Shown here piece by piece: positions 1 through 15,511 of a stretch of DNA of 64,000 bases. Origin of the DNA: Capnocytophaga canimorsus. GTDB taxonomy: Bacteria > Bacteroidota > Bacteroidia > Flavobacteriales > Flavobacteriaceae. The stretch's first letter is position 1. Every line of letters starts with the position of its first letter. Below the pieces are notes generated by a model. It was given only the letters and a program-made list of their open reading frames with translations. It ran no database searches and was not told the DNA's origin. The stretch lies in contig NZ_CP022382.1 in the NCBI RefSeq assembly GCF_002302565.1, positions 1,993,001-2,057,000 on the forward strand, written 5' to 3'. A program made the translations under genes and the position numbers.

Positions 1-762
1 GAGGTGAACAATTACGCACGAGTTTTCATTCCGAGTTTGGGGATACATTACAAGATTTTGCCCGTTTGGTCAGTATTTTCTGGCATTCATAAAGGATTTT
101 CGCCACCAAGTGCAGGAATGAATCAAAAACCTGAAAGTAGCGTGAATTGGGAATTAGGAACTCGATATACAACCAATAACTTAACTGCCGAACTCATTGG
201 TTTTTACAACAAATATAGCAATATGTTGGGAAGCGATTTGGCAGCAGCTGGAGGTAGCGGTACATTGGAACAGTTCGATGTAGGAGAAGCCAAAGTAAAA
301 GGAGCGGAATTTTTGGTACATTATCAGCCAATGCCTGAAACGAGCAAATTCAAATTACCTTTACAGATTTCATACACCTACACCGATACCGAAATGCTTA
401 ATTCCTTCGAGGAAAATACGTGGGGACGTGTGTTTGTGGGCGATGAAATTCCGTACATCAACAAACATAGCTTCAATGCGAGTTTAGGGGCGGAGTACAA
501 AGGTTTTGAGCTGAATATCGGGGTGCGTTATAATGGTGATATGCGTACCACACCTGGGCAGGGACGTATTGCGGAGCATAACAAAATCCCTGCACATACC
601 ATTATTGATGCATCGGCGAGGGCTCGTGTGAATAAGTATTTGACACTTACGCTGAACGCTATCAACCTAACGAATAAAACTTATTTGGTGTCGCGGCATC
701 CTTCGGGCTTACGAGCAGGACATCCTTTTGGTATTTATTCAGGGGTGAATGTGAAGTTTTAG
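1..762 (+). CDS. TonB-dependent receptor, C-terminal part (partial)
   Basis: The reading frame is open from the first base, so the gene starts outside the window and only about 253 C-terminal residues are present. The sequence is an outer-membrane beta-barrel: alternating short strands, repeated aromatic girdle residues, and a final strand ending in Phe (NVKF), the usual end of TonB-dependent receptors. The segment around VFSGIHKGFSPPS and the later LGSDLAAAGGSGT resembles siderophore/ferric-citrate type receptors rather than SusC, so transport of an iron chelate is the likely role (inference). The plug domain and TonB box are not visible. It is followed at once by a hairpin and a 42-bp-period array. 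Confidence 0.85.
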   Translation, partial: EVNNYARVFIPSLGIHYKILPVWSVFSGIHKGFSPPSAGMNQKPESSVNWELGTRYTTNNLTAELIGFYNKYSNMLGSDLAAAGGSGTLEQFDVGEAKVKGAEFLVHYQPMPETSKFKLPLQISYTYTDTEMLNSFEENTWGRVFVGDEIPYINKHSFNASLGAEYKGFELNIGVRYNGDMRTTPGQGRIAEHNKIPAHTIIDASARARVNKYLTLTLNAINLTNKTYLVSRHPSGLRAGHPFGIYSGVNVKF

Positions 763-787
763 TAGGGACAGGACGTGTCCTGTCCTC
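763..787. repeat. Post-stop palindromic element, copy 1
   Basis: Immediately after the stop codon there is a near-perfect hairpin: GGACAGGAC at 766-774 and GTCCTGTCC at 777-785. Two similar elements follow the stops of susC (5788-5811) and susD (9506-9530). The arms differ in sequence between copies but stay complementary. It may stabilise mRNA 3' ends or be a dispersed REP-like element. No T-run follows, so a classic terminator is less likely. Confidence 0.7.
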
Positions 788-811
788 ACCAAATATAAAA
801 TTGTATTTTTG

Positions 812-1150
812 TTGAAACACGAGTGAAATGCCGAATATACGATTGTATTTTATTTAAAACACGAGTGAAATGGGTTTCGTCTGATTCGGTTTTTGTTAAA
901 ACAGAGGTGAATTACTCATCGCAGATACTGCGAAGGGCATTTCATCGGTGAACTGGGCATCGCCTAATTCAATTTTGATAAAAACACTAATGAAACAGAC
1001 AAATATCAGTTGATAATGGGGCAAAATACCAGTGAAATGAGCAAATATCATTTGATATTTGAATAAAACATTGATGAGGAGAAGAAATATCAATTGATAA
1101 TGGGGTAAATTGGTAACAAGACTCAAAACAAAAAGTTATTTATTATAAAA
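812..1150. repeat. 42-bp-period degenerate tandem array 1
   Basis: The intergenic stretch 763-1168 is mostly a degenerate tandem array. The anchor AAACAC/AAACAG/AAATAC/AAACAT occurs at 815, 857, 899, 982, 1024 and 1066, with weaker matches near 941 and 1107, so the spacing is 42 bp with one or two 41-bp steps. Units carry an AAACACGAGTGAAATG-like core, and some carry TTTCGtCTgATT, which aligns with the unit of array 2 (5913-6165). No open reading frame or spacer pattern like CRISPR is present. Confidence 0.8.
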
Positions 1151-1168
1151 AGGATAAAGTAGTGTAAT

Positions 1169-2395
1169 ATGAGTTCAACAAGTTCATCGGAAGTAAATCC
1201 TGAAATGAAACTATTTTCGGAAGTTAATGATTTTTGTGATAGTATCTTTGAAAAAATTAAAGAAGAAGAAGCAAAGTTACCTTATCATATAAACATTATT
1301 GATTTATTGAGAGCTGGTGAAAATGCTCATAGCCGAATTTTAGGACGTTTGTTGGAACAAAAAAACGATGAAAATTATGAGATATTAAGTTCTTTTTTGA
1401 GTTTGCTTGCAGAGCGTAATAGTAATTTTTCTCATTTGAAAGTAAAAAGTCCAACAATATCCTGCGAAAAAGGAAGAATTGACATACTTATAAAAGATAA
1501 AAATTACGCCATTATTTTTGAGAATAAGATTCGTAATGCCATTGACCAAAAAGGACAGATAGAAAGGTATATTGCTAAGGTAAAAGAACTTGGTTATGAA
1601 GAATCACAAATTTATGTACTTTATCTCTCAGCTGATGGTAGGAAAGAGCCAACAGCTGAAAGTTGGGGAAAATACAAAGGAAGCGATTTTGAAAAAAAAA
1701 GATATATTCAACTGAATTTTAGGTATGATATATTAAGTTGGTTGAAAGGAAAAGTTTTACCAGACGTACGAATTAAAGATGTTCACTTAATAAGTGCTAT
1801 TGAACAATATATTGACCATTTAGAAGGATTTTTTAATTTAAGAACCATACAAGAACCAATGAGTGAAAAACTAAAAAAAGAGATATTAAGAAAATTAGAT
1901 ATTGAACATAAATCAATAAATGATAAATTCGAAAAGTTGAATGATAAAATAGATGAATTAGATAAGGTTAGAAATCAATTGTTCGCATTAAAATCAGAAA
2001 TGGAAGTTGATTTTTTAGAGGAATGTTATGAAAAGTTGGAGGAATATAAATCTAATTTTGAGACTTTTAGTACTGAATGGGAGTTAATCAAATCTACGAA
2101 CGAAAAAAATTATCCAAGTGTGGGTATTAAAGCGTATGAAGAGAAATTTCCTTTTAGGATTTTAATAGAAATTGAAAGAGAATCAGATAAGATATGTTAC
2201 GGAATTGCTAAACCCAACCCGAATCCTCCAAAAGAAAATACATTAGAAAAATTTTTTGAATCTTTTCCAAATAAAGAGAGTCTCTTTGAAAGTGATTATT
2301 GGTGGTATTTAAAGAAAATTACTTCATATGATAGCGGGTGTGATGAATTTAAAGAGTTCGTAGACAATGTTGTTAAATATTGTAAAAATAACTAG
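1169..2395 (+). CDS. PD-(D/E)XK nuclease family protein (PDDEXK_4-like)
   Basis: A 408-residue cytoplasmic protein without a signal peptide. The N-terminal half has the restriction-endonuclease-like core of the PDDEXK_4 type: ENAHSRIL near residue 51, then RIDILIKD with Asp105, then FENKI with Glu118 and Lys120 (the E-x-K), followed by a Gln-rich helix (Q127, Q130). The middle (about 235-275) is a charged coiled-coil-like helix rich in KLNDKIDEL. The C-terminal third is a separate domain that I do not recognise. The gene is visibly more AT-rich than the flanking susC, which suggests later acquisition. It lies between array 1 and susC with only 24 bp to susC, so it may be co-transcribed. Substrate and role (defence, mobile-element cargo or repair) cannot be told from sequence. 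Confidence 0.75.
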   Translation: MSSTSSSEVNPEMKLFSEVNDFCDSIFEKIKEEEAKLPYHINIIDLLRAGENAHSRILGRLLEQKNDENYEILSSFLSLLAERNSNFSHLKVKSPTISCEKGRIDILIKDKNYAIIFENKIRNAIDQKGQIERYIAKVKELGYEESQIYVLYLSADGRKEPTAESWGKYKGSDFEKKRYIQLNFRYDILSWLKGKVLPDVRIKDVHLISAIEQYIDHLEGFFNLRTIQEPMSEKLKKEILRKLDIEHKSINDKFEKLNDKIDELDKVRNQLFALKSEMEVDFLEECYEKLEEYKSNFETFSTEWELIKSTNEKNYPSVGIKAYEEKFPFRILIEIERESDKICYGIAKPNPNPPKENTLEKFFESFPNKESLFESDYWWYLKKITSYDSGCDEFKEFVDNVVKYCKNN

Positions 2396-2419
2396 TTAAA
2401 AAAATAAAAGTTATCATTT

Positions 2420-5400
2420 ATGAATCAATCAATGATAAAGAAACTACTATATAGCGTACTTTTATTATGTTCGCAGTGGGCATTGGCACAGACGGATATT
2501 AAAGGAACAGTTACTGACGCCAAAGGCGAACCGCTTTTAGGGGCAACCGTAATTCTCAAAGAAAGAAATGTGGGAGTTACTACCGATATGGAAGGAAAAT
2601 TTACCATCAAAGGCGAACAAGGGCAAACGTTGGAGGTGAGCTATGTTGGTTTCCAGATGAAAAAAGTAAAAATAACGTCCAATAATCTGAAAATTACACT
2701 TCAGGAAGAAACTGAGCAGCTCGGTGAGGTGGTTGTTACGGGATATCAGAAGATAAAAAGTCGTGTTTTTACGGGAGCTTCGGCTTCGGTGAAGATGAAC
2801 GAAATAAAAATGGACGGCGTGGCTGATGTTTCGCGTATGCTCGAAGGACGCGTAGCAGGGCTTTCCATTCAAAACGTGACGGGTACATTCGGTTCGGCAC
2901 CACGCATCAACATTCGTGGCGGGGCTTCCATCATTGGGAATGTACAACCACTGTGGGTTATCGACGGAGCGGTTTATGAGGACTTAGTTTCTCTTAGTCT
3001 CGACCAATTGGTTTCGGGCGATGCCGTAACTCTTATAAGTTCTGCTATAGCCGGACTTAATGCTACCGATATTCAGGATATTCAAGTACTTAAAGATGCT
3101 TCGGCGACTTCCGTTTATGGAGCGAGAGCCTTAAATGGAGTGATTGTTATCACAACCAAATCGGGCAAACGCGACACCCCAAATCGCATTACCTACTCCT
3201 ACGAGCAAAGTTTTCGTCAGATACCTTCGTATGCAGATTTTGATTTGTTAAATTCACAAGAAACAATGTCCGTTTACCAAGAACTGGCTAATAAAGGATA
3301 TTTCGGTTTACGCGATGCTCTTTACGGCAGACGCAGTGGTATTTATTATCAGTGGTACAAAGGCATCAGCACGATTAACCCCAATACAGGGGCGTATTAC
3401 TATGAAAATACAGAAGAAGGCAAACGAGCTTTTTTCAAAGAACGCGAATACACCAATACCGATTGGTTCAACCATCTTTTTACGCTTAATCCCATTCAGA
3501 ATCATACCATTACTTTTTCGGGCGGAGGAAAAAACACCACAACGTATGCTTCTATCGGATTTTATAATGATGGTGGCTGGACAATTACTGACAATGTACA
3601 ACGCATCACGGCTAATCTGAAAAATACATTCTACATCAACGATAAATTCAAAACGACACTTTCTGCACAAGGGAATATGCGTCAGCAAAAAGCCCCAGGA
3701 ACATTCACGCAACGCAAGAATACTACCCTTGGTTCGTTCGAGCGTGACTTTGACATCAATCCTTTTTCCTATGCTTTATCCACCAGCCGAACGCTTCGTC
3801 CGCGTAGCAGTAATGGCGAGTTGGAATACTATCGCAACAATTGGGCTCCGTTTAATATTCTAAACGAATACCAAAATAATTACCTAAATATAAATCTGTT
3901 AGACTTCAAAATACAAGGAGAAGCCTCTTATAAGTTTAATAACGACTTGGAAGCAACTGTATTGCTTTCTACACGACAAGCTTTTACAGCGACATCGCAT
4001 TTCATCAAAGAGGGTTCGAATGTAGTTCAGGCTTTTCGTGCCAACGAAACTCCTTGGGTGGCTCAGCAGAACATCTATCTGATAAAAGACAAGGATAATC
4101 CGCTTTTGCAACCTAAAGTAGGTCTGACTCACGGAGGAATTTTCAACAAAACCGAAACTACCCTCAAAAGTTACCAAGCTCGTTTTGCGTTGGATTACAA
4201 CAAACAATTGGGCGAACACGACATCAAAGGGTTTGGCTTTGCCGAAATTCGTTCGGCTGACCGCAGCGTAAATCCGTTTCAAGGATACGGCATTCAGTAC
4301 GATAAAGGCAATCAAATCTTTACCAATCCGCTCATTTTTCAAAAATTATTAAATGAAGGAACGGATTATTTCTCGCTTTTGGAGCGATACGAGCGCGGAG
4401 TAACCTTCTCACTAAGTGGTACGTATGGTTATCAAGGAAAATACATTTTCAATACGGTGCTTAACTACGAGGGGTCGAATACAGCAGGTAGAAACAGCCG
4501 TTCTCAATGGCTTCCTACTTGGAATATTGGTGGAAAATGGAATATCGACCAAGAAAGTTTTATGAAAGACCAAGACTATTTCTCAACCCTTGCTTTCCGT
4601 GCCAGTTACGGGCTTACCGCCAAGATGAACGAACAAGCCATCAACTCGAATGCGGTGTACAAAAACCAGATTTTAAATCGTTTCCGATTTGAAGACCGCG
4701 AAAACGCACTGCGTATCCTCCATTTGGAAAATCGTGACCTTACGTGGGAGAAAATGTACGAATTAAACATTGGTATCGATGCCGGATTTTTCAACAATCG
4801 CCTCAATGCAACCATTGACGTGTATCAACGTAATTCGTTCGACCTGATTGACCTTATCCGCACTTCGGGCGTGGGTGGGCAGTACTACAAATACGCTAAC
4901 TTTGGCGATATGCGTACGCGAGGCGTGGAATTGGCTTTAAATTCTAAAAACATTTTGACGGACGATTTCAAATGGACAACCAACTTTACCATAAGTTATA
5001 TGAATCAGGAAATCACCCGATTGCTCAATACGCCGAACACCTTTGATATGGTTGCTGGGGCGGGACGTGGGAACATCGTTGGGTTTCCGAAAGGGTCGCT
5101 CTTTTCGTTTAACTATCAAGGTTTGAATTCATACGGATTGCCGACTTTTGATTTTGGCTTGTATCCGCTTAATAACCGAGCGTATGGCAACATTGCGGGA
5201 GCCGACTTTCTGGACGCCCAGTATTCTAAAACGTATTTGATTTATCACGGTTCGATTGAGCCAAATGTGAATAGTGGTTTGTCCAATACCTTTCAATATA
5301 AGAATTGGGAGCTGTCGTTTTTCATCACGGCACAGGCGGGGAATAAAATTCGGTTAAATCCGTCGTTCGACCCAGCTTTCGCTGACCTAAATGTTTTTTC

Positions 5401-5782
5401 AACTGAATATTACAACCGATGGATTGCCCCAGGTGATGAGTGGCGAACGGAAGTTCCTGCGTTGCCTTCGCAAGATTTAATCCGACTTATTGGCGAGGAG
5501 AACATCGAACGGGCGTATAACACTTATAATTATTCGCAAAATAGGGTAGCCGACGGAAGTTTCGTGCGAATGAAAAACATTTCACTTGGTTACAACGTTC
5601 CAGAACATTATGCAAAGAAATTCGGCTTGAGTACCATCAATGTACGTGGGCAGGTTACCAATCCGTTTTTGATTTATTCGGACAAACGTCTTAACGGTCA
5701 AGACCCCGAGTATTATCGTTCAGGTGGGGTATCGCTACCAACCCCAAAACAATTCACGTTGACGGTAAATGTTGGGTTTTAA
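2420..5782 (+). CDS. SusC/RagA family TonB-linked outer membrane protein
   Basis: A 1,120-residue outer-membrane importer. A signal peptide ends near WALAQ (residue 24). It is followed by the carboxypeptidase-like beta-sandwich (TDIKGTVTDAKGEPLLGATV), the LGEVVVTGYQ TonB-box region, and a plug domain with GRVAGLSI, INIRGGASI, PLWVIDG and DASATSVYGARALNGV, all hallmarks of SusC proteins. The long beta-barrel ends in VNVGF. It should pair with a SusD lipoprotein to import a bulky ligand across the outer membrane using TonB energy. The SusD gene is not adjacent but 2.2 kb downstream, beyond an array and two unrelated genes. Substrate is unknown; the accessory lipoproteins suggest a protein or metal-bearing ligand rather than a plain polysaccharide (inference). 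Confidence 0.93.
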   Translation: MNQSMIKKLLYSVLLLCSQWALAQTDIKGTVTDAKGEPLLGATVILKERNVGVTTDMEGKFTIKGEQGQTLEVSYVGFQMKKVKITSNNLKITLQEETEQLGEVVVTGYQKIKSRVFTGASASVKMNEIKMDGVADVSRMLEGRVAGLSIQNVTGTFGSAPRINIRGGASIIGNVQPLWVIDGAVYEDLVSLSLDQLVSGDAVTLISSAIAGLNATDIQDIQVLKDASATSVYGARALNGVIVITTKSGKRDTPNRITYSYEQSFRQIPSYADFDLLNSQETMSVYQELANKGYFGLRDALYGRRSGIYYQWYKGISTINPNTGAYYYENTEEGKRAFFKEREYTNTDWFNHLFTLNPIQNHTITFSGGGKNTTTYASIGFYNDGGWTITDNVQRITANLKNTFYINDKFKTTLSAQGNMRQQKAPGTFTQRKNTTLGSFERDFDINPFSYALSTSRTLRPRSSNGELEYYRNNWAPFNILNEYQNNYLNINLLDFKIQGEASYKFNNDLEATVLLSTRQAFTATSHFIKEGSNVVQAFRANETPWVAQQNIYLIKDKDNPLLQPKVGLTHGGIFNKTETTLKSYQARFALDYNKQLGEHDIKGFGFAEIRSADRSVNPFQGYGIQYDKGNQIFTNPLIFQKLLNEGTDYFSLLERYERGVTFSLSGTYGYQGKYIFNTVLNYEGSNTAGRNSRSQWLPTWNIGGKWNIDQESFMKDQDYFSTLAFRASYGLTAKMNEQAINSNAVYKNQILNRFRFEDRENALRILHLENRDLTWEKMYELNIGIDAGFFNNRLNATIDVYQRNSFDLIDLIRTSGVGGQYYKYANFGDMRTRGVELALNSKNILTDDFKWTTNFTISYMNQEITRLLNTPNTFDMVAGAGRGNIVGFPKGSLFSFNYQGLNSYGLPTFDFGLYPLNNRAYGNIAGADFLDAQYSKTYLIYHGSIEPNVNSGLSNTFQYKNWELSFFITAQAGNKIRLNPSFDPAFADLNVFSTEYYNRWIAPGDEWRTEVPALPSQDLIRLIGEENIERAYNTYNYSQNRVADGSFVRMKNISLGYNVPEHYAKKFGLSTINVRGQVTNPFLIYSDKRLNGQDPEYYRSGGVSLPTPKQFTLTVNVGF

Positions 5783-5787
5783 CGCCG

Positions 5788-5811
5788 TAGGGACGAGACA
5801 AGTTTCGTCCC
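5788..5811. repeat. Post-stop palindromic element, copy 2
   Basis: Six bases after the susC stop, GTAGGGACGA at 5787-5796 pairs with TCGTCCC at 5805-5811. It shares the GTAGGGA start and position with the elements after the TonB receptor gene and susD, while the rest of the arm sequence differs. Confidence 0.6.
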
Positions 5812-5828
5812 ACTAAAAAGGTAATGGC

Positions 5829-5907
5829 ATTCACTTGTCAGGCTGAGCAAAGTCGAAATCTTTTTTAAGAGAAATAGTAAGTTTCTCGACTTCGCTCGAA
5901 ATGACAA
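5829..5907. repeat. Imperfect inverted repeat (dispersed-type element)
   Basis: GTCAGGCTGAGCAAAGTCGA at about 5838-5857 faces CTCGACTTCGCTCGAAATGAC at about 5885-5905, forming a long imperfect palindrome with a central loop. Elements of this style (agcgaagtcgag / ctcgacttcgct) are common between genes in Flavobacteriia (from memory). It contains no gene. Confidence 0.55.
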
Positions 5908-5912
5908 TAACT

Positions 5913-6165
5913 GAAACCACTCAGATTGGGGTTTCGCCTAATTAGTTGAAGATAGAAAACGCTCGGATTGACGTTTCGCCTAATTGGTTGAAGGTAGAAA
6001 ACACTCGTTTTGGGGTTTCGCCTAATTGGTTGAAGGTAGAAAACGCTCGGATTGACGTTTCGGGGAAATCCTGAAAGATGAAAACACTCGGATTGATGCT
6101 TCGGGGAAATCCCGAAAGGTGGAAACGCTCGTTTTGAGGTTTCGCCTAAATAATTAAAAGTAAAA
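5913..6165. repeat. 42-bp-period tandem array 2
   Basis: Units begin GAAAACxCTCG at 5913, 5955, 5997, 6039, 6080 and 6121, giving steps of 42, 42, 42, 41 and 41 bp. A typical unit reads GAAAACGCTCGGATTGACG then TTTCGCCTAATTGGTTGAAG. In the last units CGCCTAATTGGTTGAAGG is replaced by CGGGGAAATCCCGAAAGG, so units vary in blocks. The unit aligns with array 1 (TTTCGcCTaATT core) and shares GGATTGA and CCT in phase with array 3. Function unknown. Confidence 0.85.
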
Positions 6166-6184
6166 AAATAGGAAATAGTAGAGA

Positions 6185-6811
6185 ATGGATAGTCATATTT
6201 GGATAGAAAAATGGAATAATCATTATAAAACAGACGATTTTGTGTATGGCAAGTCGCCCAATCGGTTTTTTAAGGAGGAAATTGACAGACTTCGTCCGCT
6301 TTCTATCTTATTACCAGCAGAAGGAGAGGGCAGAAATGCAGTGTATGCGGCTAAAAATCAGTGGGAAGTAACCGCTTTCGATATTAGTGAAGAGGGAAAG
6401 AAAAAAGCATTGCAATTGGCAAAAGAAAATGATGTTTTTGTAAATTATAAGGTTGGCGAACTGCCTAATTTGGACTTTGATAAAGCCTCATTCGATACAA
6501 TTGCACTGATTTATGCTCATTTTCCGCCCCAAATACGTTCCGCCTATCATCAAAAGTTGATAACACTTCTCAAAAAAGGAGGTATCATTATTTTTGAAGG
6601 ATTTAGCAAAAAACATCTCGACTATCGGAAGAAAAATCCGAAAATAGGAGGACCAGCCGATGCTGAGTCATTGTTCTCTTTGGAAGAAATTCAATCCGAT
6701 TTTGCCGGTTTTAAGTTTGAAACATTGGTTGAGCAAGAAGTAGCACTTTCCGAAGGGCTTCTTCATAATGGAATAGGTTCTGTTATCCGATTTGTAGCAC
6801 GGAAGCAATAA
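6185..6811 (+). CDS. Class I SAM-dependent methyltransferase (TehB/thiopurine-type)
   Basis: A 208-residue soluble protein. The N-terminus WIEKWNNHYKTDDFVYGKSP is typical of the TehB-like/thiopurine-methyltransferase-related group. The SAM-binding fold shows motif I as LLPAEGEGRNAVYAA (residues about 38-52), the acidic end of strand 2 as VTAFDISEEG, and a later LKKGGIIIFEGF strand. No membrane segment or signal peptide is seen. It sits between array 2 and a flavin-dependent oxidoreductase, inside the gap between susC and susD. The methyl acceptor cannot be deduced; small-molecule methylation such as of tellurite or thio compounds is only a family-level guess. Confidence 0.85.
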   Translation: MDSHIWIEKWNNHYKTDDFVYGKSPNRFFKEEIDRLRPLSILLPAEGEGRNAVYAAKNQWEVTAFDISEEGKKKALQLAKENDVFVNYKVGELPNLDFDKASFDTIALIYAHFPPQIRSAYHQKLITLLKKGGIIIFEGFSKKHLDYRKKNPKIGGPADAESLFSLEEIQSDFAGFKFETLVEQEVALSEGLLHNGIGSVIRFVARKQ

Positions 6812-6868
6812 AATAACAATATATAAAAATAGAATAGTACAATAAATACTACAAGAAAGAATATAAAA

Positions 6869-7924
6869 ATGAAGTCAAAAAAAATAGAATTAGGGATTAC
6901 TTCTTTTGGAGAAACGACTCCGCTGGAAGCTACAGGTAAAGCCATTTCACACGCTGAGAGAATACAAAATATGGTTGAAGAAATGGAACTTGCCGATGCC
7001 GTAGGACTTGATATTTACGCCATTGGGGAGCATCATCGTTCGGATTTTGCCGTATCGGTGCCTGAAATGGTATTGGCAGCAGGAGCGGTGAATACGAAAA
7101 ACATTCGTCTGTCGAGTGCTGTTACGGTGCTTTCCTCTTCCGACCCGATTCGTATTTATCAAAATTTTGCCACCCTCGATGCTATTTCCAACGGAAGAGC
7201 CGAAATAATGGTCGGGAAAGGGTCTTTTATTGAATCCTTTCCGCTATTTGGGTATAGCTTAGATGATTACTACGGATTATTTCACGAAAAATTGGATATG
7301 CTTTTGGAAATTTCCGAAAAAGAGCTTCTTACTTGGGAAGGACGACTAACGCATTCGGTGGACGCAAGAGGCGTTTATCCCAGAGCCGTGCAAGAAAAGT
7401 TACCCATTTGGGTAGCCACAGGCGGAAGTCCTGAAACTGCCGTTCGCACTGCTAAAATGGGATTACCTATCGCCTTTGCTATTATCGGGGGAGAGCCTCG
7501 TGCATTCAAACAACTGATTGACGCATATCGCCAAATAGGTAAGCAGTGGGGACATACGGCAGAGCAGTTGCAAGTAGCATCACACTCGTGGGGATTCATC
7601 GCTGAAGATAACCAACAAGCTGTGGATATGTACTTCCACCCAACCAAACAAGTAGTTGATGCCATCTCGAAAGACAGACCGCATTGGCAACCGCTTACCA
7701 AAGAGCAATATTTGAATTCGGTAGGGGAATACGGAGCAATGTTCGTAGGCGACCCAAAAGTAGTTACCGAAAAGATTATAAAAACTATTGAAACCCTGCA
7801 ATTAGACCGATTTATGCTACATATGCCTATCGGTTCGTTGCCTCATCAGGCGGTATTGAAAGCCATTGAACTTTTCGGGAAGGAAGTCGCTCCGAAAGTG
7901 AGGGCTTATTTTGAAGAAAGATAG
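6869..7924 (+). CDS. LLM-class (luciferase-like) flavin-dependent oxidoreductase
   Basis: A 351-residue cytoplasmic TIM-barrel protein of the bacterial-luciferase superfamily. Recognisable pieces are the N-terminal LGITSFGETTP strand, DAVGLDIYAIGEHHR (helix and strand of the flavin site), TVLSSSDPIRIYQNFATLD, the GRAEIMVGKGSFIESFPLFG loop and WVATGGSPETAVRTAKMG. It resembles the putative FMN-dependent luciferase-like monooxygenases often annotated only by family. It follows the methyltransferase by 57 bp and precedes susD by 59 bp, so it may be transcribed with them. No functional link to SusCD import is evident. It may be cargo inserted in the locus. Confidence 0.88.
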   Translation: MKSKKIELGITSFGETTPLEATGKAISHAERIQNMVEEMELADAVGLDIYAIGEHHRSDFAVSVPEMVLAAGAVNTKNIRLSSAVTVLSSSDPIRIYQNFATLDAISNGRAEIMVGKGSFIESFPLFGYSLDDYYGLFHEKLDMLLEISEKELLTWEGRLTHSVDARGVYPRAVQEKLPIWVATGGSPETAVRTAKMGLPIAFAIIGGEPRAFKQLIDAYRQIGKQWGHTAEQLQVASHSWGFIAEDNQQAVDMYFHPTKQVVDAISKDRPHWQPLTKEQYLNSVGEYGAMFVGDPKVVTEKIIKTIETLQLDRFMLHMPIGSLPHQAVLKAIELFGKEVAPKVRAYFEER

Positions 7925-7983
7925 TTTTTTAGTATTTGCCCAACGAAAGAGCATCAAATCAAATAATAAAAATATCAGATGAT

Positions 7984-9501
7984 ATGAAATCAATCATAAA
8001 ACTAACATTAGTAGGCTTGTTTCTGACCTCGTGTCAAGGTTTTTTGGACAAAGACCCTGATTCGTCGCTCAATGTGGCAATTGATTCGGAAGAAAAAATA
8101 GCAGAACTACTCACAGGAGCTTATCCTCAGGCGAGTTATTTTGCTTTTCTGGAAGCCCGAACCGACAATGTCGAGGAGCGAATCGGAGGGGTACACACGC
8201 GTCTGAACGAAGCGATGTACTTCTGGGAGGATTACGACCAAGAAGATTTGGACACGCCCTTAAACTACTGGAATGCGTGTTATGCAGGTATCGCACAGGC
8301 AAACAAAGCGTTGGAATTGTTGGCTTCATATCCGAAAACGGACCGAGTAAAGGCTTTGTACGGAGAGGCTTTTTTGCTTCGAGCGTATTTACATTTTATG
8401 TTGGTCAACATCTGGGCAGAACCTTACGGAACGGAAAAAGCCAAGAATAGTGCTGGTATTCCGTATCTAACCAAACCTGAAAAACACGCTTTAGTCGATT
8501 ACAAACGTGGAACAGTTGCTGAAGTTTACGAAAAAATTGAAGCCGATTTAAAGTTAGGAATTACGTTGGTTGATGATAATTTCTACAAAAAGCCTAAATT
8601 TCACTTCAACAAAAAAGCGGCTTATGCCTTTGCTTCGAGGTTTTACTTGATAAAAGGCAAATGGGATTTGGTTATTGAGTATGCTGACTACGTTTTGGGA
8701 AGCAACCCCAAACAAACCTTGCGAAATTGGGAACATTACGCCAGATTGCACGGCAATAATCGTAAATCTTTGTTCGCTACCTATACTGCAACGGAAGAAC
8801 CTGCTAATCTGCTAATCACCACTACCGAATCGCGTTGGAAACGCAATTTGCCTGTTGATAAATACGGATTTACTGACCAGAAAATCAGTGAGATATTTGC
8901 GTCAAAAGGGATTGACGGTTGCGATAGTGATGCAGGAAGAAAGCTCAATTACGTAACAACTTATCTGTTTTCCGATTCGGAAAGACCTGTAAATAACGGA
9001 ACGTATATTGCCAAGTTCGATGAATTGTCTCTTTTGGGAAGTACAGGAACGAAGCCCAAAGATTTGTATGTAACCAATGTGCTTTTCACCACTGATGAAG
9101 TCTTGCTTAACCGAATGGAAGCCTACGCAATGAAGCGTGAATACGAAAAATCGGTTGAAGATTTGAAAGAATACATACGAGGAAAATACGGAAATTTGGC
9201 AGTTCCGCCGTGTTCTAATGAGTCGTACACGTCAATCAATAGTAGTTTTTATGAAGTGTATAGTCCTTTTTATGGGCTGACTTTAAAGCAATTGGCTTTG
9301 GTTAAAATCATTTCGGATTTTCGTCAGAAGGAATTTCTGCACGAGGGATTGCGTTGGTTTGACATCCGCCGATTTTACATTCCTATTCGCCGAAATTCTA
9401 AAAGCCCAATTTACCAACCGCTTCGCAAGGAAGACCCACGAAAGTTATTGCAAATTCCTGCCGAAGCCATCAATCGAGGTTTAGCACCCAATCCGAGATA
9501 A
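7984..9501 (+). CDS. SusD/RagB family nutrient-binding outer membrane lipoprotein
   Basis: The ATG at 7984 is preferred over an upstream TTG because the lipoprotein signal MKSIIKLTLVGLFLTSC begins there. About 505 residues. SusD features are present: FLDKDPDSSLN just after the lipidated Cys, TPR-like helices with YGEAFLLRAYLHFMLVN and the C-terminal RQKEFLHEGLRWFDIRRF signature. It should form the lid of the SusC importer on the cell surface. The acidic K-(D/E)2 signal is not directly after Cys but DKDPD follows five residues later. The gene is separated from susC by an array, a methyltransferase and an oxidoreductase, which is unusual. Confidence 0.93.
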   Translation: MKSIIKLTLVGLFLTSCQGFLDKDPDSSLNVAIDSEEKIAELLTGAYPQASYFAFLEARTDNVEERIGGVHTRLNEAMYFWEDYDQEDLDTPLNYWNACYAGIAQANKALELLASYPKTDRVKALYGEAFLLRAYLHFMLVNIWAEPYGTEKAKNSAGIPYLTKPEKHALVDYKRGTVAEVYEKIEADLKLGITLVDDNFYKKPKFHFNKKAAYAFASRFYLIKGKWDLVIEYADYVLGSNPKQTLRNWEHYARLHGNNRKSLFATYTATEEPANLLITTTESRWKRNLPVDKYGFTDQKISEIFASKGIDGCDSDAGRKLNYVTTYLFSDSERPVNNGTYIAKFDELSLLGSTGTKPKDLYVTNVLFTTDEVLLNRMEAYAMKREYEKSVEDLKEYIRGKYGNLAVPPCSNESYTSINSSFYEVYSPFYGLTLKQLALVKIISDFRQKEFLHEGLRWFDIRRFYIPIRRNSKSPIYQPLRKEDPRKLLQIPAEAINRGLAPNPR

Positions 9502-9505
9502 CTTG

Positions 9506-9530
9506 TAGGGAAAGGACGTGTCCTTTCCGC
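9506..9530. repeat. Post-stop palindromic element, copy 3
   Basis: Four bases after the susD stop lies a perfect hairpin, GGAAAGGAC at 509-517 of this kilobase (9509-9517) and GTCCTTTCC at 9520-9528. Compared with copy 1, the C-G pair of the arm is replaced by A-T on both sides, a compensatory change that supports selection or mobility of the folded form. Confidence 0.7.
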
Positions 9531-9556
9531 TTAAAATAAAAAATAATCAACATACA

Positions 9557-10687
9557 ATGAGAAGAATATACATAATATTAACATTGGTTTTGCTCAGTTG
9601 TAACAAAGAAAAGCTATCCGACCAAAGCGTGGTGGAAGCCAACATTGTGCAACGTAATTATACCGAATTGGATACTTGGATACGCAATGAATTTACCTTA
9701 CCTTACGGAATTGAGGTCAATTATCGTTGGGACGGAAACACGGCTCCGAAAGGAAGTTACACCTATCCGCCAGAGGCTAAAAATATTCAAAAGGTATTGC
9801 AAACCATAAAGCATTTGTGGCTCGAAACCTATACATTGGCAAATGTGGGCGGCAAGGATTTCTTAAAAGGAAAAAATCCGATTAAGATTTATATGTACGG
9901 AGGGCAAAATGTTGATGAAAATGGAGTGGAATTATTGTCGAACACCGCAACTACTTCGGCAGAAATGCACCTGTACGATGTCAATAATTTCGATGAGAAG
10001 GATTATGCCAAAGTCTTTGCCTTAATGCGAAGCGTACACCATCAATTTGCCAAACGATTGATGGAATTATTGCCTTACGACCGAGATAAATTTTTGAAAA
10101 TCAGTTCAGGAGGATATGTGTCTAATACAAAAGAATTGCCTGAAAGAGAGCCTATTGTCAAATATATCCGTAAGGCTTCTGATTGCACAAGAGACCGAGA
10201 TGTACAAGCCAACCAATCGTTTGCTTATGTGGTAAAAGCCGACCAAGATTTTCTGACACTTCGTATGGGATTTTTCAGTGTTGGAAAAAATGTGACCACG
10301 CAAGGGAAATTATATAAAGATAATTGCGAGGAAGTGTTGAATAACGGAAACTCGGTGTCGGAAGTGGTTAGTACCGAAGGAATTAGAGCCAATCGCAGAG
10401 GGTTTTTCACTATTCATTCGATGCTTTCTCCTGAAGATGATATGGCTGAGGTAGTTAGTACTTATCTGACGCACAGTGCCAAAGATGTTGAAAACGCTAT
10501 CGCATTGGGTGGAATACCTTTTAATCCTTCTGACCCAGAAGACCAGCAAGAAGCCCAAGAAGCCGTAAAAAAACTTCGCCAAAAGCAAGAATTTGTAGAA
10601 GATTATTTCAAAAAGGAAATCAAAATTAATCTCAAACGAATGCAAACCATCAGCATTCAGCGACTTAAATCATACGTAAATCAATAA
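9557..10687 (+). CDS. Putative zinc-metallopeptidase-family lipoprotein (PF15890-like) with degenerate HExxH
   Basis: Start at 9557 gives the lipoprotein signal MRRIYIILTLVLLSC followed by NKEK. The 376-residue protein matches the SusCD-linked putative zinc-binding metallopeptidase family: N-terminal NYTELDTWIRNEFTLPYGIEV, then the catalytic region, then SPEDDMAEVVSTYLTH. In the family as I remember it, the active-site helix reads HHEFAHIL; here residues 161-168 are HHQFAKRL, so Glu163 is Gln and the second zinc His166 is Lys. Peptidase activity is therefore unlikely and a binding role is more plausible (inference). It lies in the same direction as susD with 55 bp between, and 3 bp before the DUF4302 gene. 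Confidence 0.82.
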   Translation: MRRIYIILTLVLLSCNKEKLSDQSVVEANIVQRNYTELDTWIRNEFTLPYGIEVNYRWDGNTAPKGSYTYPPEAKNIQKVLQTIKHLWLETYTLANVGGKDFLKGKNPIKIYMYGGQNVDENGVELLSNTATTSAEMHLYDVNNFDEKDYAKVFALMRSVHHQFAKRLMELLPYDRDKFLKISSGGYVSNTKELPEREPIVKYIRKASDCTRDRDVQANQSFAYVVKADQDFLTLRMGFFSVGKNVTTQGKLYKDNCEEVLNNGNSVSEVVSTEGIRANRRGFFTIHSMLSPEDDMAEVVSTYLTHSAKDVENAIALGGIPFNPSDPEDQQEAQEAVKKLRQKQEFVEDYFKKEIKINLKRMQTISIQRLKSYVNQ

Positions 10688-10690
10688 AAT

Positions 10691-11722
10691 ATGAAAAAAT
10701 ATCTTATTCTGTTGGCTATAATAGGACTTTTTTCTTGCAAAAAGGAAGATGATGGGATTTCTCCTTCGCAAAGAAATCTGCAAAATATCAATGAATTACG
10801 TAAGGAACTTACGGAGGCTCCTTATGGCTGGAAGGTGATGTATTTTTCAAAAACGGATTCATTGGCTTTTAGCAATAAAGATGAAGTTTTTAAGAAAGAA
10901 ATTTTCTATTACAGAGACCAATACGGATACGGAGGGCATTATTTTCTAATGAAATTTACTCCCGAAGGAAAGGTAACAATGTTAGCTGATTTTGATGCTA
11001 ATAGTAGTTCGAAACCACAAGAAAGTCAGTTCGAAATTAAGCAAAATACCTTTACCGAGCTTAGTTTTACGACCTATAATTACATTCATCAATTGGTAAA
11101 CGAACAACTAGAAGGCAAGTCCGATTTTTTGTATTTGCGTAAGGATTTTGACCAAAATTTGTTGTTCAAAACCACTAATTCTATTGAACCCGCTCGCGAA
11201 TACATCGTCTTTGAAAAGTTAAAATCAGAAGAGGCGTGGAAGCATCCGTCAGAAAATAATGTTCAGAAAGCATACGAAAACAGAACATTCTTTGCAAAAA
11301 TGAAAAATCCGCAAATTGTTATCCGAAAAGGAAGTCGTGTTTTTTTCCAAAGTGACGTTGTTATCAAAACCACAACGGGAACTCCTGAATACAATCGTTT
11401 TTTGAAATCAATGACAGCCAATCGGTATTATGTTTTTCTGGCAGGTAAGAAATGGAATGCCAACCCGAATATTACAGTTCCTGATGAGAGTTATGCTTTG
11501 GGTTCAGGATATGTAGGAACAGAGCAAGGAATTACGTTTAGAACGGGAATTCGGTATGATAAGAACTATATTTTTTATGATTTTGAGCGAAAAGGAGATA
11601 CATTTGTATGCGAATTGGTCAAAGTGTACGACCCTATTTATAAAAGATATATGTTTGTGAGCAAGCATCTTTATCCTGATGGCGAACCAACGCATTTTGT
11701 TGCTGAAATAGTTGACAAATAG
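10691..11722 (+). CDS. DUF4302-type surface lipoprotein
   Basis: A 343-residue lipoprotein: signal MKKYLILLAIIGLFSC, then KKEDDG, which fits the K-(D/E)2 surface-export signal described for Capnocytophaga lipoproteins. The N-terminal part (NELRKELTEAPYGWKVMY, then GGHYFLMKFTPEGKVTM) and a later DFLYLRKD are characteristic of DUF4302, a family found beside SusCD and the PF15890 metallopeptidase. Function is unknown. It starts 3 bp after the upstream stop, indicating one operon and possible translational coupling. Probable role: an accessory surface subunit of the importer (inference). Confidence 0.8.
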   Translation: MKKYLILLAIIGLFSCKKEDDGISPSQRNLQNINELRKELTEAPYGWKVMYFSKTDSLAFSNKDEVFKKEIFYYRDQYGYGGHYFLMKFTPEGKVTMLADFDANSSSKPQESQFEIKQNTFTELSFTTYNYIHQLVNEQLEGKSDFLYLRKDFDQNLLFKTTNSIEPAREYIVFEKLKSEEAWKHPSENNVQKAYENRTFFAKMKNPQIVIRKGSRVFFQSDVVIKTTTGTPEYNRFLKSMTANRYYVFLAGKKWNANPNITVPDESYALGSGYVGTEQGITFRTGIRYDKNYIFYDFERKGDTFVCELVKVYDPIYKRYMFVSKHLYPDGEPTHFVAEIVDK

Positions 11723-11741
11723 AAACAAGCGAAAAAATGAT

Positions 11742-12341
11742 ATGACAATGAATAGAAAATATTTATTTTTGATAATACTATTGGGGATTTTTTCCTGTAA
11801 TGTAAAAGATAGCGACCCAGCAGAGGAAGATTATAGCAAATTATTTCCTTGGAAAGGAATTGAAAAGCCTGAAAATGCCTACGAGGATATGAATGTCCGA
11901 TTGTGCAATCCTAACGATGCTTTGAGTAGTTATCGCTATCCTGGGGTTTCCATTGATAACCAGCGGGAGTACGACGTAACCATAAAATGTCAGTACAGAG
12001 AAGCTCCACAAACTTCATCTCTTGCCCGATTTGAAGTCCGTTTTATTGATGACAAAAAGCAAATAGTTGCAGTGGGGTCAGATGCTTCGAACAGCAATAT
12101 AACTCACAAACTTACCGATGGAGTGGAATTTTCTAAAACGTTTAGAGTGAAGTCCGGCTATCCGATGTATTTGTTAGTCAATGGAATTGGTGATAGAGGT
12201 TCGAACATAAAAGCAAGTATCTCAGCCGTTTCAAAAGACGGACTTATTGTTGTTCCAACCCTCAGTACCGAGCAATCGCAAAACAATGAAGGACCTAACA
12301 GAATTCCGTCCCCGTATTGCGAGTATATTATTTTGCCATAA
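11742..12341 (+). CDS. Hypothetical lipoprotein in the SusCD-linked cluster
   Basis: About 199 residues. ATG codons at 11742 and 11748 both give the lipoprotein signal ending LLGIFSC; 11742 is used here, but 11748 is equally possible. The mature part starts NVKDSDPAEED, acidic as in surface lipoproteins. The rest is predicted beta-rich (REYDVTIKCQY, ARFEVRFID, HKLTDGVEFSKTFRV), perhaps one beta-sandwich domain. I do not recognise the family. It lies 19 bp after the DUF4302 gene in the same operon, so a role as accessory surface subunit is inferred only from context. Confidence 0.7.
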   Translation: MTMNRKYLFLIILLGIFSCNVKDSDPAEEDYSKLFPWKGIEKPENAYEDMNVRLCNPNDALSSYRYPGVSIDNQREYDVTIKCQYREAPQTSSLARFEVRFIDDKKQIVAVGSDASNSNITHKLTDGVEFSKTFRVKSGYPMYLLVNGIGDRGSNIKASISAVSKDGLIVVPTLSTEQSQNNEGPNRIPSPYCEYIILP

Positions 12342-12448
12342 ACGTGTTGGAATGACAGCGGAGCAAATTGTATTGAGAATGAAGACAACACACAAAATTA
12401 AATAACCAACTGAACAAGGCGATTCTTGTTCTTACAAACAGAAAAAAT

Positions 12449-13621
12449 ATGTGGAAATATACAATTTTAATAGTGTCCCTTTTGGTGTTGGGGTGTAACA
12501 AAGGCGAGGGAGAGACGGTAGAGTCGGCGTACGTAGAGCCTTTGCCTCTCGAACTCAAGTACAGCTTTTCCCGCAACGGAAGCAGTAGCGTTGACGTGTT
12601 GGAATGCGAACTGGTCAAAGAGCCTATCGACCGAATCTATAATTCTTATCTGAAAAGAGCTCAGATTTCAAATCAAAGCAATTATGATGAGGTAATGGGA
12701 TTGTTTACCAACGGAATGTATCACCTAAAACCGAAAGAAGAAATAGCTACTTCGCCTTTGCATATTGCTAAAAAATCGGTTATTGAACAAGATATAATAA
12801 CGCTCATTGATGTATCTAGTGCGATTGCAGGAAGAGGAGAAGCCAATCCTTCTGACCACAGAAATCGTCCTGCTAACTACGGACGCACGGGATATATCGG
12901 GCAGAGTATCGGTGATGTAAATCTTTCCTTTGCAGATGAAAAAGGCTTGGTGGTAGCTGAAATTTTCAATAATTCGTTGTTGGGAGCTATTTATTTGGAT
13001 AAAATCCTAAATTATCACTTGGACGAACAATTTTTTGACAATGCCGAGCTTATCGCCAAACACGAAAATGTAGAATTACTGGTGGGAAGGAATTACACCG
13101 AGTTGGAACATCATTGGGATTTGGCGTACGGATACTTCGCTTTCTTGCGTCCGCTGGTACAAGCTGAGGGAATTGCTTTGCTCAAAGATAGCGAACGCAC
13201 TCTCTTCAATGCTTTTGTTCAGGGGCGTATTGAGTTGGGAAGATATCGTTATGAGGATATGAAAAAACATCTGAAAATCATCAGAAGTGAGCTTTCCCGA
13301 GCCATCGCCATTCAGATTGTGGATATTTTGGTGGGTGAAAACACCTTAGTCAATATGGATGAAGGGACGGGCTATGCATTTCCTTTTATCTCTCGTGCGT
13401 ACGGACTTATTTACACGATGCAATTTGCCAGAAACGCAGAGGGAAAACCTTATTTCACGTATGAGGAAATCCAAAGTTATCTGCAAGAACTTAAAAATGA
13501 TAAAGGTTTGTGGGATAAAGACAAGCTCCTTTCCGATGTCAATCATAAAGGTTCTTTAAAGAATATTGCTTCTGAAATAGGAAAGCCTTTCGGAATTTCA
13601 ATCAATGATATAAAAAGATAA
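12449..13621 (+). CDS. DUF4856-type (imelysin-related) lipoprotein
   Basis: A 390-residue lipoprotein with signal MWKYTILIVSLLVLGC followed by the acidic NKGEGETVE. The body fits DUF4856: an initial LPLELKYSF motif, a long alpha-helical region, and the signature ELEHHWDLAYGYFAF around residues 218-232, where imelysin-like families place their conserved His and aromatic residues. These families are linked to iron uptake in Bacteroidota and other bacteria. With the TonB receptor at the start of the window it supports, without proving, an iron- or metalloprotein-related import locus. It is the last gene of the susD-led operon and is followed by array 3. Confidence 0.8.
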   Translation: MWKYTILIVSLLVLGCNKGEGETVESAYVEPLPLELKYSFSRNGSSSVDVLECELVKEPIDRIYNSYLKRAQISNQSNYDEVMGLFTNGMYHLKPKEEIATSPLHIAKKSVIEQDIITLIDVSSAIAGRGEANPSDHRNRPANYGRTGYIGQSIGDVNLSFADEKGLVVAEIFNNSLLGAIYLDKILNYHLDEQFFDNAELIAKHENVELLVGRNYTELEHHWDLAYGYFAFLRPLVQAEGIALLKDSERTLFNAFVQGRIELGRYRYEDMKKHLKIIRSELSRAIAIQIVDILVGENTLVNMDEGTGYAFPFISRAYGLIYTMQFARNAEGKPYFTYEEIQSYLQELKNDKGLWDKDKLLSDVNHKGSLKNIASEIGKPFGISINDIKR

Positions 13622-13724
13622 AGTAAAGTGGATTTTCTTTTCATCAAGAAGAAATCAGTAAAAAGGAAGTTGATAAATATTCAAAAACAGATAGATTGTT
13701 CTTATTTTTAACAAGGAAATTCAA

Positions 13725-14006
13725 AAAATCATCAGGGATAGAGTTTATCCCTGCTGGGGAAGGACAAAAATCATTAGGGAAGGAATGTATCCCTACTGGG
13801 GAAGCATAAAAATCATCAGGGAAGGAGTGTATCCCTGCTGGGGAAGGACAAAAATCATCAGGGATTGAGTATATCCCTGCTGGGGAAGGACAAAAATCAT
13901 TAGGGATTGAGTATATCCCTGCTGGGAAAGGACAAAAATCATTAGGGATTGAATATATCCCTACTGGGGAGGCGTAAAAATCATCAGGGATTGAGTGTAT
14001 CCTTGA
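13725..14006. repeat. 42-bp-period tandem hairpin array 3
   Basis: Seven copies start at 13728, 13770, 13812, 13854, 13896, 13938 and 13980, every step exactly 42 bp; the last copy is partial. The unit begins ATCATCAGGGATTGAGTAT and continues ATCCCTGCTGGGGAAGGACAAAA. Each unit carries a small palindrome, CAGGGAT...ATCCCTG, so the array could fold into a row of hairpins in RNA or DNA. One frame reads SSGIEYIPAGEGQK per unit but is closed by TAA at 13807 and 13975 and has no good start. Upstream 13622-13724 holds nothing else recognisable. Confidence 0.9.
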
Positions 14007-14144
14007 TAAAAAACAATAAAAAATATATGATTTAAAAGGTTTTTATGGTTTTTTAGAAAGAAAACAAAATTATAAATGAGTTAAATCATCTGGAATAAAT
14101 AAATTTTTTGATGATATAGATAATAAAAAATAGTTTTTTGTACT

Positions 14145-14230
14145 GATTCCCCCTTTGAAGGGGGGTAGGGGGGATGTAAAATCCAAAAGACATCCTCCGT
14201 CCTTCGGACACCTCCTTCAAAGGAGGATTT
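14145..14230. repeat. Long imperfect palindrome (REP-like intergenic element)
   Basis: ATTCCCCCTTTGAAGGGGGG at the left is mirrored by CCTCCTTCAAAGGAGGAT at the right, with inner arms GGGGGATGT and ACATCCTCC around a short centre. This type of element (ccctttgaaggggg...ccttcaaaggggg) is a familiar intergenic repeat in Bacteroidota (from memory). It may act as a transcription or mRNA-stability element after the SusCD operon. The rest of 14007-14341 is AT-rich with no gene seen. Confidence 0.65.
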
Positions 14231-14341
14231 TGGAGTGTGATAAATTGTATAAAGTTGATGAGATTTTATTTAATTCATAAAACTTTATCAAGAAACTAAA
14301 AGCAATAAAATAATATCAAACAGATATAAATAGAAAAAGAG

Positions 14342-15385
14342 ATGAAATACAGAATATTCATAGTATTTTTAATCGTGGGACTTGTTGCTCAAGCACAAAG
14401 TAACTTAGTTCCTAATGGAGGATTTGAAGGAGGAAGTTCAAGCAGACCTGATAATTGGTATTTCCCTAATGGATTTGCTTATCAGCGGTCTTCTGATGCA
14501 CATTCGGGAAGTTACGCAGCCAAAATTTATGCTAATTCAGGAACTTTTTATCTTCATCAAGAAGGAGAGACAAATGCAATTGATGTAGAGGCAAATGCCC
14601 AGTACGTTTTATCATATTGGTATAAAGGAGATGTATCTGACCGAAATATGGAGCTTTATGTATCTTGGTATGATGGTGATAGCAGAATCAAAAGGGAAGC
14701 TCTCGGAAAGGTTTCTTTTACAAGCCAATGGCAAAAGCGAGAAGTTACACTTACCGTTCCTACAGGGATTAACAAAATGGGAATAGCTTTTTATGTATCA
14801 CAAAGTAATGGTTTCATCAGTATTGATGATATTTCGTTGGTTTATCAGGGCAATGGCGGAGGCGGTAGTGTTTCAGTCCCAACAGGGGTTTCCACAAGGG
14901 AATATCAGCGAGAAATTGAAGTAAGATGGGATAAAGAAGCCGACAGACAGCTGCAATGGGAAGTTTTCGTGAATGACCAGTCTGTAGGCAAGACGCAAAC
15001 AAATCGATTTCTGGTTACGGACTTAGAACCTCAGAAGAGTTATAGAATAAAAGTTCGTGCTTTAAAAGGAAGTGAGGTGTCCGACTTTTCAAAAGAGATA
15101 AATGCCATTACCAACGATATGAGAAGAAGTCAGAATGATATGGAACGTGTTCCGCATCTGCGTACCCTTAACATTGATGGAGAAGTTTCTCAAACAATCG
15201 ACCTATATTATAATGATTTAGCAAATAAAAATGCAAAAATCCAGTATTTTATAAACTCAAAACAGGTATTTCCGACTAATAATCAGCTTACTTTTCCTAA
15301 AAAAGGAAAGCAAACGCTAAAAATCGTCATTGAAGAGGCTCCAAATATGAAGTGGGAGTTGGATTATTACTTAGATGTGAAGTAA
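14342..15385 (+). CDS. Exported carbohydrate-binding-like/Fn3 protein
   Basis: A 347-residue exported protein with signal peptide MKYRIFIVFLIVGLVAQAQ and no lipobox. Residues about 20-175 form a jelly-roll carbohydrate-binding-like module (NLVPNGGFEGG, YVLSYWYKGD, GFISIDDISLVY), as in CBM4/9-type domains. After a GNGGGGS linker comes a fibronectin-III-like domain (about 183-258; IEVRWDKE, DLEPQKSYRIKVRAL), then a C-terminal beta-rich domain of about 90 residues with no enzymatic motif. I see no clear T9SS C-terminal signal. The likely role is binding a glycan or glycoprotein; no catalytic domain is present. It is 341 bp past array 3 and separate from the SusCD operon. Confidence 0.7.
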   Translation: MKYRIFIVFLIVGLVAQAQSNLVPNGGFEGGSSSRPDNWYFPNGFAYQRSSDAHSGSYAAKIYANSGTFYLHQEGETNAIDVEANAQYVLSYWYKGDVSDRNMELYVSWYDGDSRIKREALGKVSFTSQWQKREVTLTVPTGINKMGIAFYVSQSNGFISIDDISLVYQGNGGGGSVSVPTGVSTREYQREIEVRWDKEADRQLQWEVFVNDQSVGKTQTNRFLVTDLEPQKSYRIKVRALKGSEVSDFSKEINAITNDMRRSQNDMERVPHLRTLNIDGEVSQTIDLYYNDLANKNAKIQYFINSKQVFPTNNQLTFPKKGKQTLKIVIEEAPNMKWELDYYLDVK

Positions 15386-15511
15386 AATCTGTATAAAAAT
15401 GCTTTAAATGATGTTTTCCATAGATTGGGAAATGTTTTTTATTTGTTAGGAAAGCCAAATAAGATAAAAATAAAAGTGAATAATAAGTTTGATAAGATAA
15501 ATAATATTATT

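Follow-up and report, generated by a model that had tools for sequence, protein, structure and literature searches.

Why should three intergenic stretches of DNA, hardly alike in sequence, repeat with the same step? The question is raised by a 64,000-nt window of the Capnocytophaga canimorsus genome (contig NZ_CP022382.1, positions 1993001–2057000 of 2.41 Mb; genome G000), in which an earlier note had described three intergenic tandem arrays with a 42-bp period. These were recovered both by Tandem Repeats Finder (TRF) and by autocorrelation; no strand was assigned to them. Array 1 (792..1115) consists of about eight units of about 42 bp, array 2 (5913..6165) of six units of 41–42 bp, and array 3 (13724..14005) of seven 42-bp units. 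TRF returned a period of 42 at 792–872, 5913–6062/6039–6144, and 13724–14002, and one of 41 in part of array 2. Lag 42 was the top autocorrelation lag for arrays 1, 2, and 3 (matching positions 0.52, 0.63, and 0.87, respectively), and no open reading frame (ORF) of at least 80 amino acids (aa) overlaps any of them. The answer proposed here is that the arrays belong to a class of fixed step associated with genes of the DUF6261 family (Pfam PF19775), that the DUF6261 protein would use such an array as a platform of double-stranded DNA, and that the window arrays would be orphans of this class. The mechanism is a proposal, and the reading as a whole is given a probability of about 0.42.

Likeness among the three window arrays is, on the sequence comparisons made, at most marginal. 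When profiles were compared at the best phase, each half of array 1 gave P 0.26 against array 2; the comparison of arrays 2 and 3 gave P 0.04 (uncorrected), and that of arrays 1 and 3 P 0.07–0.08. BLASTN among the three found no similarity at 1e-4. The middle of array 1 is degenerate, and its two halves are alike (profile comparison, P 0.001). The sequence cores formerly thought to be shared by arrays 1 and 2 and by arrays 2 and 3 were thus not recovered, and the adverse outcome named in the earlier note, arrays no more alike than chance, is close to what was found.

Tandem arrays upstream of DUF6261 genes

Reading of the flanking genes identified DUF6261 as the recurrent partner of 41–43-bp arrays: arrays L038, L044, L087, L030, and L034 stand upstream of genes matching PF19775 with E values of 2e-22 to 2e-40. 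The association was then measured on a blind set of 40 DUF6261 genes chosen by gene alone (20, two already in the samples (L090, L091), 17, and one gene of a Parabacteroides distasonis plasmid picked solely by tblastn); the five loci just named, found via their arrays, were omitted. One rule was applied to all upstreams: 621 nt or the available piece was taken, and an array was scored if the best lag between 15 and 100 gave at least 50 of 84 matches (lag 21, admitted in an earlier version, was dropped). A tandem array was found upstream of 28 of the 40 genes, and its period was 41–43 bp or the double of this in all 28. These positives span a Parabacteroides plasmid and other Bacteroidota families; the plasmid array matches at 80/84 positions at lag 42 and shows two dyads by eye. 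Among 1537 control ORF upstreams from Capnocytophaga and seven other genera of the family, arrays were present in 68, their periods ranging from 15 to 100; eight had a period of 41–43 bp or its double (Fisher P 1.8e-43), these eight including the three window arrays and one DUF6261 gene (L044) that had escaped exclusion by name. The 63 named outgroup loci gave an array in 5/711 upstreams and the 41–43-bp period or its double in 0/711. Association of DUF6261 with fixed-step arrays is regarded as practically certain. Because the control periods spread from 15 to 100, the 42-bp period is a trait of this class and not of the minisatellites of the genus generally. The suggestion of the earlier note that spacing is kept while sequence drifts is thus supported well beyond the window; the broad spread of periods that it had named as adverse exists genus-wide and is absent within the DUF6261-linked class.

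A lag scan covered own-genome stretches (464 kb), genus-mates, seven other genera of the family, and the outgroup loci. Arrays of 42/43 bp were found elsewhere in the own genome (L038, L044, L046, L053) and in G007 and G019, and none of 42 bp in the family and outgroup samples. G009 yielded mainly an 11-bp repeat type and G013 AG-rich types, and the single 42-bp array of these two genomes lay within an ORF. The idea that minisatellites of the genus follow a general 42-bp rule was rejected on these grounds. Two 42-bp arrays sit inside ORFs (L076, L217). A Markov-1 control of the 464-kb sample gave 0 arrays of any period at the scan threshold. From the 12 arrays of the own-genome sample, one inside an ORF, two tandem tRNA pairs (L037, L043; confirmed), and two repeats apparently preceding rRNA operons were set aside. 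The remaining 7/7 have periods of 42, 43, or 21/42 bp, a count that is biased because the window, L044, and L053 were picked for holding hits; L038 and L046 were drawn from evenly spaced stretches, and the L046 array overlaps two mechanically called ORFs judged spurious. A further array in G007 (L095, ca. 16520–16870; best lag 41 or 83) has no recognised DUF6261 gene alongside.

PF19775 hits number nine in the own genome and 0–29 per genome in 20 genomes of the genus, 14 of which carry the family. DUF6261 was found in 3/198 genomes drawn from the phylum (own included) and in 5/57 genomes of one further family (G147 included); tblastn with one member matched one plasmid, that from Parabacteroides distasonis, and no phage. 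Five DUF6261 proteins passed a Pfam cut-off solely for PF19775; a PADLOC scan of the five returned a single match, to Cas13a at chance level (E 0.006), and a PHROGs scan two weak matches only, both of unknown function. A profile of seven members found no solved structure under E 0.05. The sole mention of DUF6261 in the literature searched is a row of a mutation table, and the array class was not found described in the available portions of the literature on Capnocytophaga and Bacteroidota tandem repeats and minisatellites (including PMC6749651, PMC4596501, and PMC5771137).

A family of coiled-coil proteins of 103–106 aa (L046:5095–5406 and relatives) was noted in the same genomes, with 1–9 copies in 12/20 genomes of the genus, 11 of which also have DUF6261. 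This family may be a further array partner. Three of its members (L082, L098, L046), all found via their arrays, stand behind 21/42-bp arrays; no array accompanies L292, the ortholog in G002, and another own-genome copy has only a weak 21-bp repeat (46/84) in a partial upstream.

Unit sequence, dyads, and the proposed binding of DNA

When the 31 DUF6261-linked arrays were compared all against all, five similar pairs were obtained at E 1e-4 (one of them, G000 against G002, 98% identical), which leaves 26 mutually dissimilar sequences with one common step. Judged from these comparisons, the class conserves unit length and not sequence, and each gene or ortholog group usually has an array sequence of its own. 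Even within many arrays the units are only 60–70% alike.

Dyad symmetry recurs in these otherwise dissimilar units. A local dyad in the consensus unit was significant (P≤0.05) in 18 of the 31 arrays, 12 of them at P≤0.01 (combined P 2.6e-15 if independent), and whole-unit dyad symmetry was found in 12/31 (combined P 1.0e-11, arrays treated as independent). By column permutation, whole-unit self-complementarity reached P≤0.05 in 15/23 array blocks, several of one sequence family, against 2/17 control repeats, a third standing at 0.052. Dyad axes lie about 10.5, 21, or 42 bp apart in several arrays, spacings that are expected if a periodic unit is itself self-complementary. An arm-swap test of 20 arrays gave P≤0.05 in five, namely array 1 (A1), L053, L082, L096a, and L027 (whose record contains N); these P values slightly favour the observed arms, because an axis jitter of at most 1 bp was permitted and picked to maximise pairing. 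For the eight copies of array 1, within-unit pairing was 4.88 of 7, as compared with 3.47 after swapping of the right arms (P 0.0014); array 2 gave P 0.07, and array 3 no difference.

In most units of array 1 the dyads stand in the same register with differing sequences (ATAC/GTAT, TCGCAG/CTGCGA, and ATATCA/TGATAT types). The left arm TCGCCTA occurs in four units of array 2, three of which have the right arm (A/G)GTTGA; two units carry the dyad TTCGGGG-aaa-TCC(C/T)GAA instead of the TCGCCTA arm. The unit dyad of array 3 is of the type CAGGGAT-ATCCCTG. Whole-unit symmetry gave P 0.31/0.0075 for array 1, 0.25/0.05 for array 2, and 0.10 for array 3.

Two further features of the arrays were recorded. 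Short palindromic stretches of the GTAGGGACGAGACA, TTTCTCGACTTCGCTCGAAATGAC, and CCCCCTTTGAAGGGGG types adjoin all three window arrays (ca. 767–790, 5788–5905, and 14148–14240), and related palindromes adjoin arrays of relatives too. In G013, three units of a DUF6261-linked array (L289:330–559) contain the promoter-like motif TAnnTTTG.

Because the arrays often directly precede DUF6261 genes, repeats and protein probably work as a pair, in which the array would be the nucleic-acid partner. B-DNA has 10.5 bp per turn, so that 41–43 bp corresponds to four turns; four helical turns per unit is a reasonable inference, and the preferred reading of the array as a DNA platform rests on this correspondence. 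DUF6261 would bind the array in its double-stranded form, contacting one face of the helix once every four turns (41–43 bp), and the binding would either control the gene or organise the local DNA. A more specific version is tentative and rather doubtful: each protein would read its own array, the sequence of the pair would be free to drift, selection would hold just the 41–43-bp step and the dyads, and orphan arrays such as the three of the window would serve in trans as additional platforms.

Whether DNA or RNA is the acting form was approached by strand bias, folding, and promoter motifs, which lean towards a DNA element without settling the matter. In stems read on the sense strand of the gene, G–T stood to A–C as 144:194, a ratio of 0.74 where composition predicts 0.86, so that there is no G–T excess; an earlier count in dyads (114:110) likewise gave no sense-strand bias. 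The folding z was lower on the sense strand in 20/31 arrays (P 0.09). TAnnTTTG, a promoter motif of Bacteroidota, occurs on the sense strand eight times in 4256 nt after the array and five times in 8660 nt before it, both small numbers. RNA hairpins backed by covariation were rejected, there being no excess of compensatory pairs (A2 family) and no sense-strand G–T bias, and no known RNA family was found at E≤1 (Rfam, window 1–20000).

A number of results weigh against the binding of DUF6261 to double-stranded DNA or against the class as drawn. As single strands the arrays fold more stably than shuffles (mean z −3.28 sense, −2.75 antisense), and this stability on both strands would also fit an action as RNA. 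Some arrays end just 20–40 nt or so ahead of the start codon, and at L289 and L087 TAnnTTTG precedes the array or coincides with its start; such arrays may therefore be transcribed. No recognised nucleic-acid-binding domain was found in DUF6261 by Pfam scan or structure profile search. A significant local dyad is absent from 13/31 DUF6261-linked arrays, the 43 dyads of the A2 sequence family (four further dyads of the Capnocytophaga cynodegmi ortholog having been dropped) show no positive pairwise covariation and no excess of compensatory pairs over shuffles, and the dyads of array 3 erode between species. Twelve of the 40 blind upstreams have no array at threshold (L253, L255, L258, L259, L261, L264, L265, L269, L091, L277 (176 nt only), L285, and L287), the best lags below threshold being 41 at L258 and L091, 42 at L269, and 83 at L253. 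None of the control upstreams came from G089, G147, G278, G282, G285, G302, or the plasmid. Array 3, finally, is similar to none of the 31 DUF6261-linked arrays by BLASTN.

Origin of the window arrays and rival explanations

Arrays 1 and 2 have relatives among the gene-linked arrays. Array 1 shares 75% identity across 112 nt with L044, the DUF6261-linked array at 919 kb of the same genome; array 2 is 72–74% identical to the DUF6261-linked arrays L034 and L030 (genomes G003 and G014) and 74% identical to the orphan array L053. None of the nine own-genome PF19775 hits lies inside the window, and no DUF6261 remnant was found near arrays 1–3, which are called orphans because neither gene nor detectable remnant stands alongside. 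The array of L053, just downstream of which lie two weak DUF6261-like fragments (E 0.018 and 0.007), suggests how orphans arise. The window arrays would be what remained when a DUF6261 gene was lost, or copies that had moved away from one. A DUF6261-plus-array module is the likely source of arrays 1 and 2 as orphans, and a plausible one of array 3.

By sequence, relatives of array 2 were found in 6/20 genomes of the genus, own included (E≤0.001), and relatives of array 3 in 4/20 (E≤0.01, one weak) and in 1/60 genomes of the family, the own one. An array stands at the array-2 site also in C. cynodegmi and G003. About 700 bp downstream of array 2, a gene encodes a protein that shares 99% identity with one from C. 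cynodegmi DSM 19736. Array length differs between related species: the seven units of array 3 compare with six in the orthologous array of C. cynodegmi, and the six of array 2 with about nine in G003, where the record includes a run of N. Change in the arrays is thus rapid.

Several known systems resemble the arrays in part. The sopC site of the F plasmid (parS-F) is a tandem array whose 43-bp units all contain a short inverted repeat that a dimer binds (PMC9178275). It is similar in its tandem layout, its nearly identical unit length (43 bp against 41–43 bp), and its short inverted repeats; it differs in having one fixed sequence downstream of sopAB and a ParB-type protein, whereas here mostly gene-specific sequences stand upstream of DUF6261 genes in up to 29 copies per genome. 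No ParB-type partner, as needed for membership of sopC/parS, was found, the five DUF6261 proteins passing the Pfam cut-off for PF19775 alone. BrickBuilt of Porphyromonas gingivalis, a minisatellite of the miniature inverted-repeat transposable element (MITE) kind, is likewise a tandem array of Bacteroidota outside ordinary genes, with 23-nt units and inverted-repeat ends (PMC4596501). The present arrays have units of 41–43 bp and are linked to a gene family; comparison of the 250-nt flanks of 18 arrays, all against all, revealed no common leader or tail with inverted ends, and a MITE of this type was ruled out. Clustered regularly interspaced short palindromic repeats (CRISPR) were ruled out for the window arrays, in which whole units repeat without unique spacers.

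Type III toxin–antitoxin loci (ToxIN, CptIN, TenpIN) carry short tandem repeats immediately ahead of the gene for the protein, with sequences highly variable between loci (PMC4627078). By analogy, the array would be transcribed and its repeat RNA would bind DUF6261. The gene order is the same, tandem repeats directly preceding the gene in 28/40 DUF6261 loci; the repeat size is similar (ToxI 36, CptI 45 nt; PMC4627078), the arrays are strongly foldable, and the promoter-like motifs at L289 and L087 fit transcription. This explanation is nevertheless unlikely: a sense-strand G–U excess is absent, the promoter-like motif occurs at higher density behind the array than ahead of it (small numbers), and repeat length, which according to the portion of PMC4627078 available differs greatly between type III loci, does not do so here. 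Units in many arrays also diverge as far as stated above, and neither Pfam nor NCBIfam gave a ToxN/CptN/TenpN-type match at E≤0.1 for the five DUF6261 proteins, the type III partners being Kid-like ribonucleases. Membership of type III systems and of sopC fails in both cases because of the protein partner.

A selfish or mobile system is quite unlikely. In it DUF6261 would copy or spread the array, and the window arrays would be dispersed non-autonomous copies. Repetitive extragenic palindromic (REP) doublets with their associated tyrosine transposases (REPIN–RAYT) and bacterial interspersed mosaic elements (BIMEs) are such a population, in which palindromic repeats go with a chromosomal gene family and also occur as orphan copies; DUF6261 too is a multi-copy gene family, and orphan arrays are related to gene-linked ones. 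However, DUF6261 is not a Y1 transposase and has no transposase-like domain (Pfam scan; structure profile search), the long arrays keep their register and at most loci differ from one another, and most match only their own locus in the DNA compared. Their flanks have no common ends, save short dispersed palindromes and a few locus-specific matches. An REP-type or REPIN–RAYT system was ruled out, as the Pfam scan found no Y1-type (IS200-like) transposase partner. Slightly less probable still are neutral minisatellites, produced by slippage and template switching at palindromes and accumulating near relaxed genes, with the 42-bp step set by the amplification machinery. The differences in copy number and unit order between related species and the richness of the genus in other minisatellites would agree with this, but control upstreams show a broad spread of periods and DUF6261 upstreams do not; a step set by the machinery should appear everywhere. 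That the window arrays are ordinary minisatellites sharing the period of DUF6261 arrays by coincidence is very improbable: the failure of array 3 to match any of the 31 linked arrays and the lack of DUF6261 remnants nearby would be in keeping with it, yet arrays 1 and 2 resemble DUF6261-linked arrays, and the period range is reached by just 8/1537 control upstreams, three of which are the window arrays themselves.

Neighbouring genes, other repeats, and significance

The genes beside the window arrays are of other kinds. Just downstream of array 1 lies a gene (1169..2395, + strand) of the PD-(D/E)XK nuclease superfamily (PF14281), not of DUF6261, whose product matches PDC-S26, a candidate defence family of PADLOC (E 2.5e-38). 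At the C. cynodegmi locus L096, the counterpart of array 1 (L096a) is followed directly by a SusC gene. Upstream of array 2 lies an ORF (2420..5782, + strand) that we take, from its sequence, to encode a SusC-like outer-membrane protein; 19 nt downstream of the array begins a methyltransferase-like gene (6185..6811, + strand), again not DUF6261, the product of which is hit by weak methyltransferase models, each under its cut-off. The link to a SusC/SusD locus drawn in the earlier note did not hold up: a SusC/SusD-specific element was ruled out, since other arrays of the class adjoin unrelated genes and it is DUF6261 that recurs.

Repeats of other types were also encountered. The 11-bp minisatellite GGCTCTACAGT of G009 occurs at several sites (L163, L168, L174, L180). 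Repeats of 128–129 bp with a promoter-like TTACTTTTGCACCCGC core, at L053:7618–7950 and L055:17977–18308, presumably precede rRNA operons. The lag scan also caught a CRISPR-like array of 47-bp repeats and 30-bp spacers in G019 (L075:13172–17836). Longer periods are represented by a 324-bp tandem repeat of 2.1 copies, probably inside a gene, at 51326–52000 of the window and by an array of 300-bp period with 6.1 copies at L050:4041–5855. At L097:1–1850 a small gene, which we take to be of the DUF559-like endonuclease type, lies between copies of the CCCCCTTTGAAGGGGG palindrome, possibly as a mobile unit.

If the reading proposed here is correct, the otherwise puzzling 42-bp minisatellites of these genomes would be explained as parts of one class, and if the pairs are private, up to 29 DUF6261 genes would coexist in one genome as separate protein–array pairs. 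The array that accompanies most of the tested DUF6261 genes offers a handle on the function of a multi-copy family of unknown function. A unit length kept while sequence is free, in more than one bacterial family, would offer a clear instance of selection acting on spacing.

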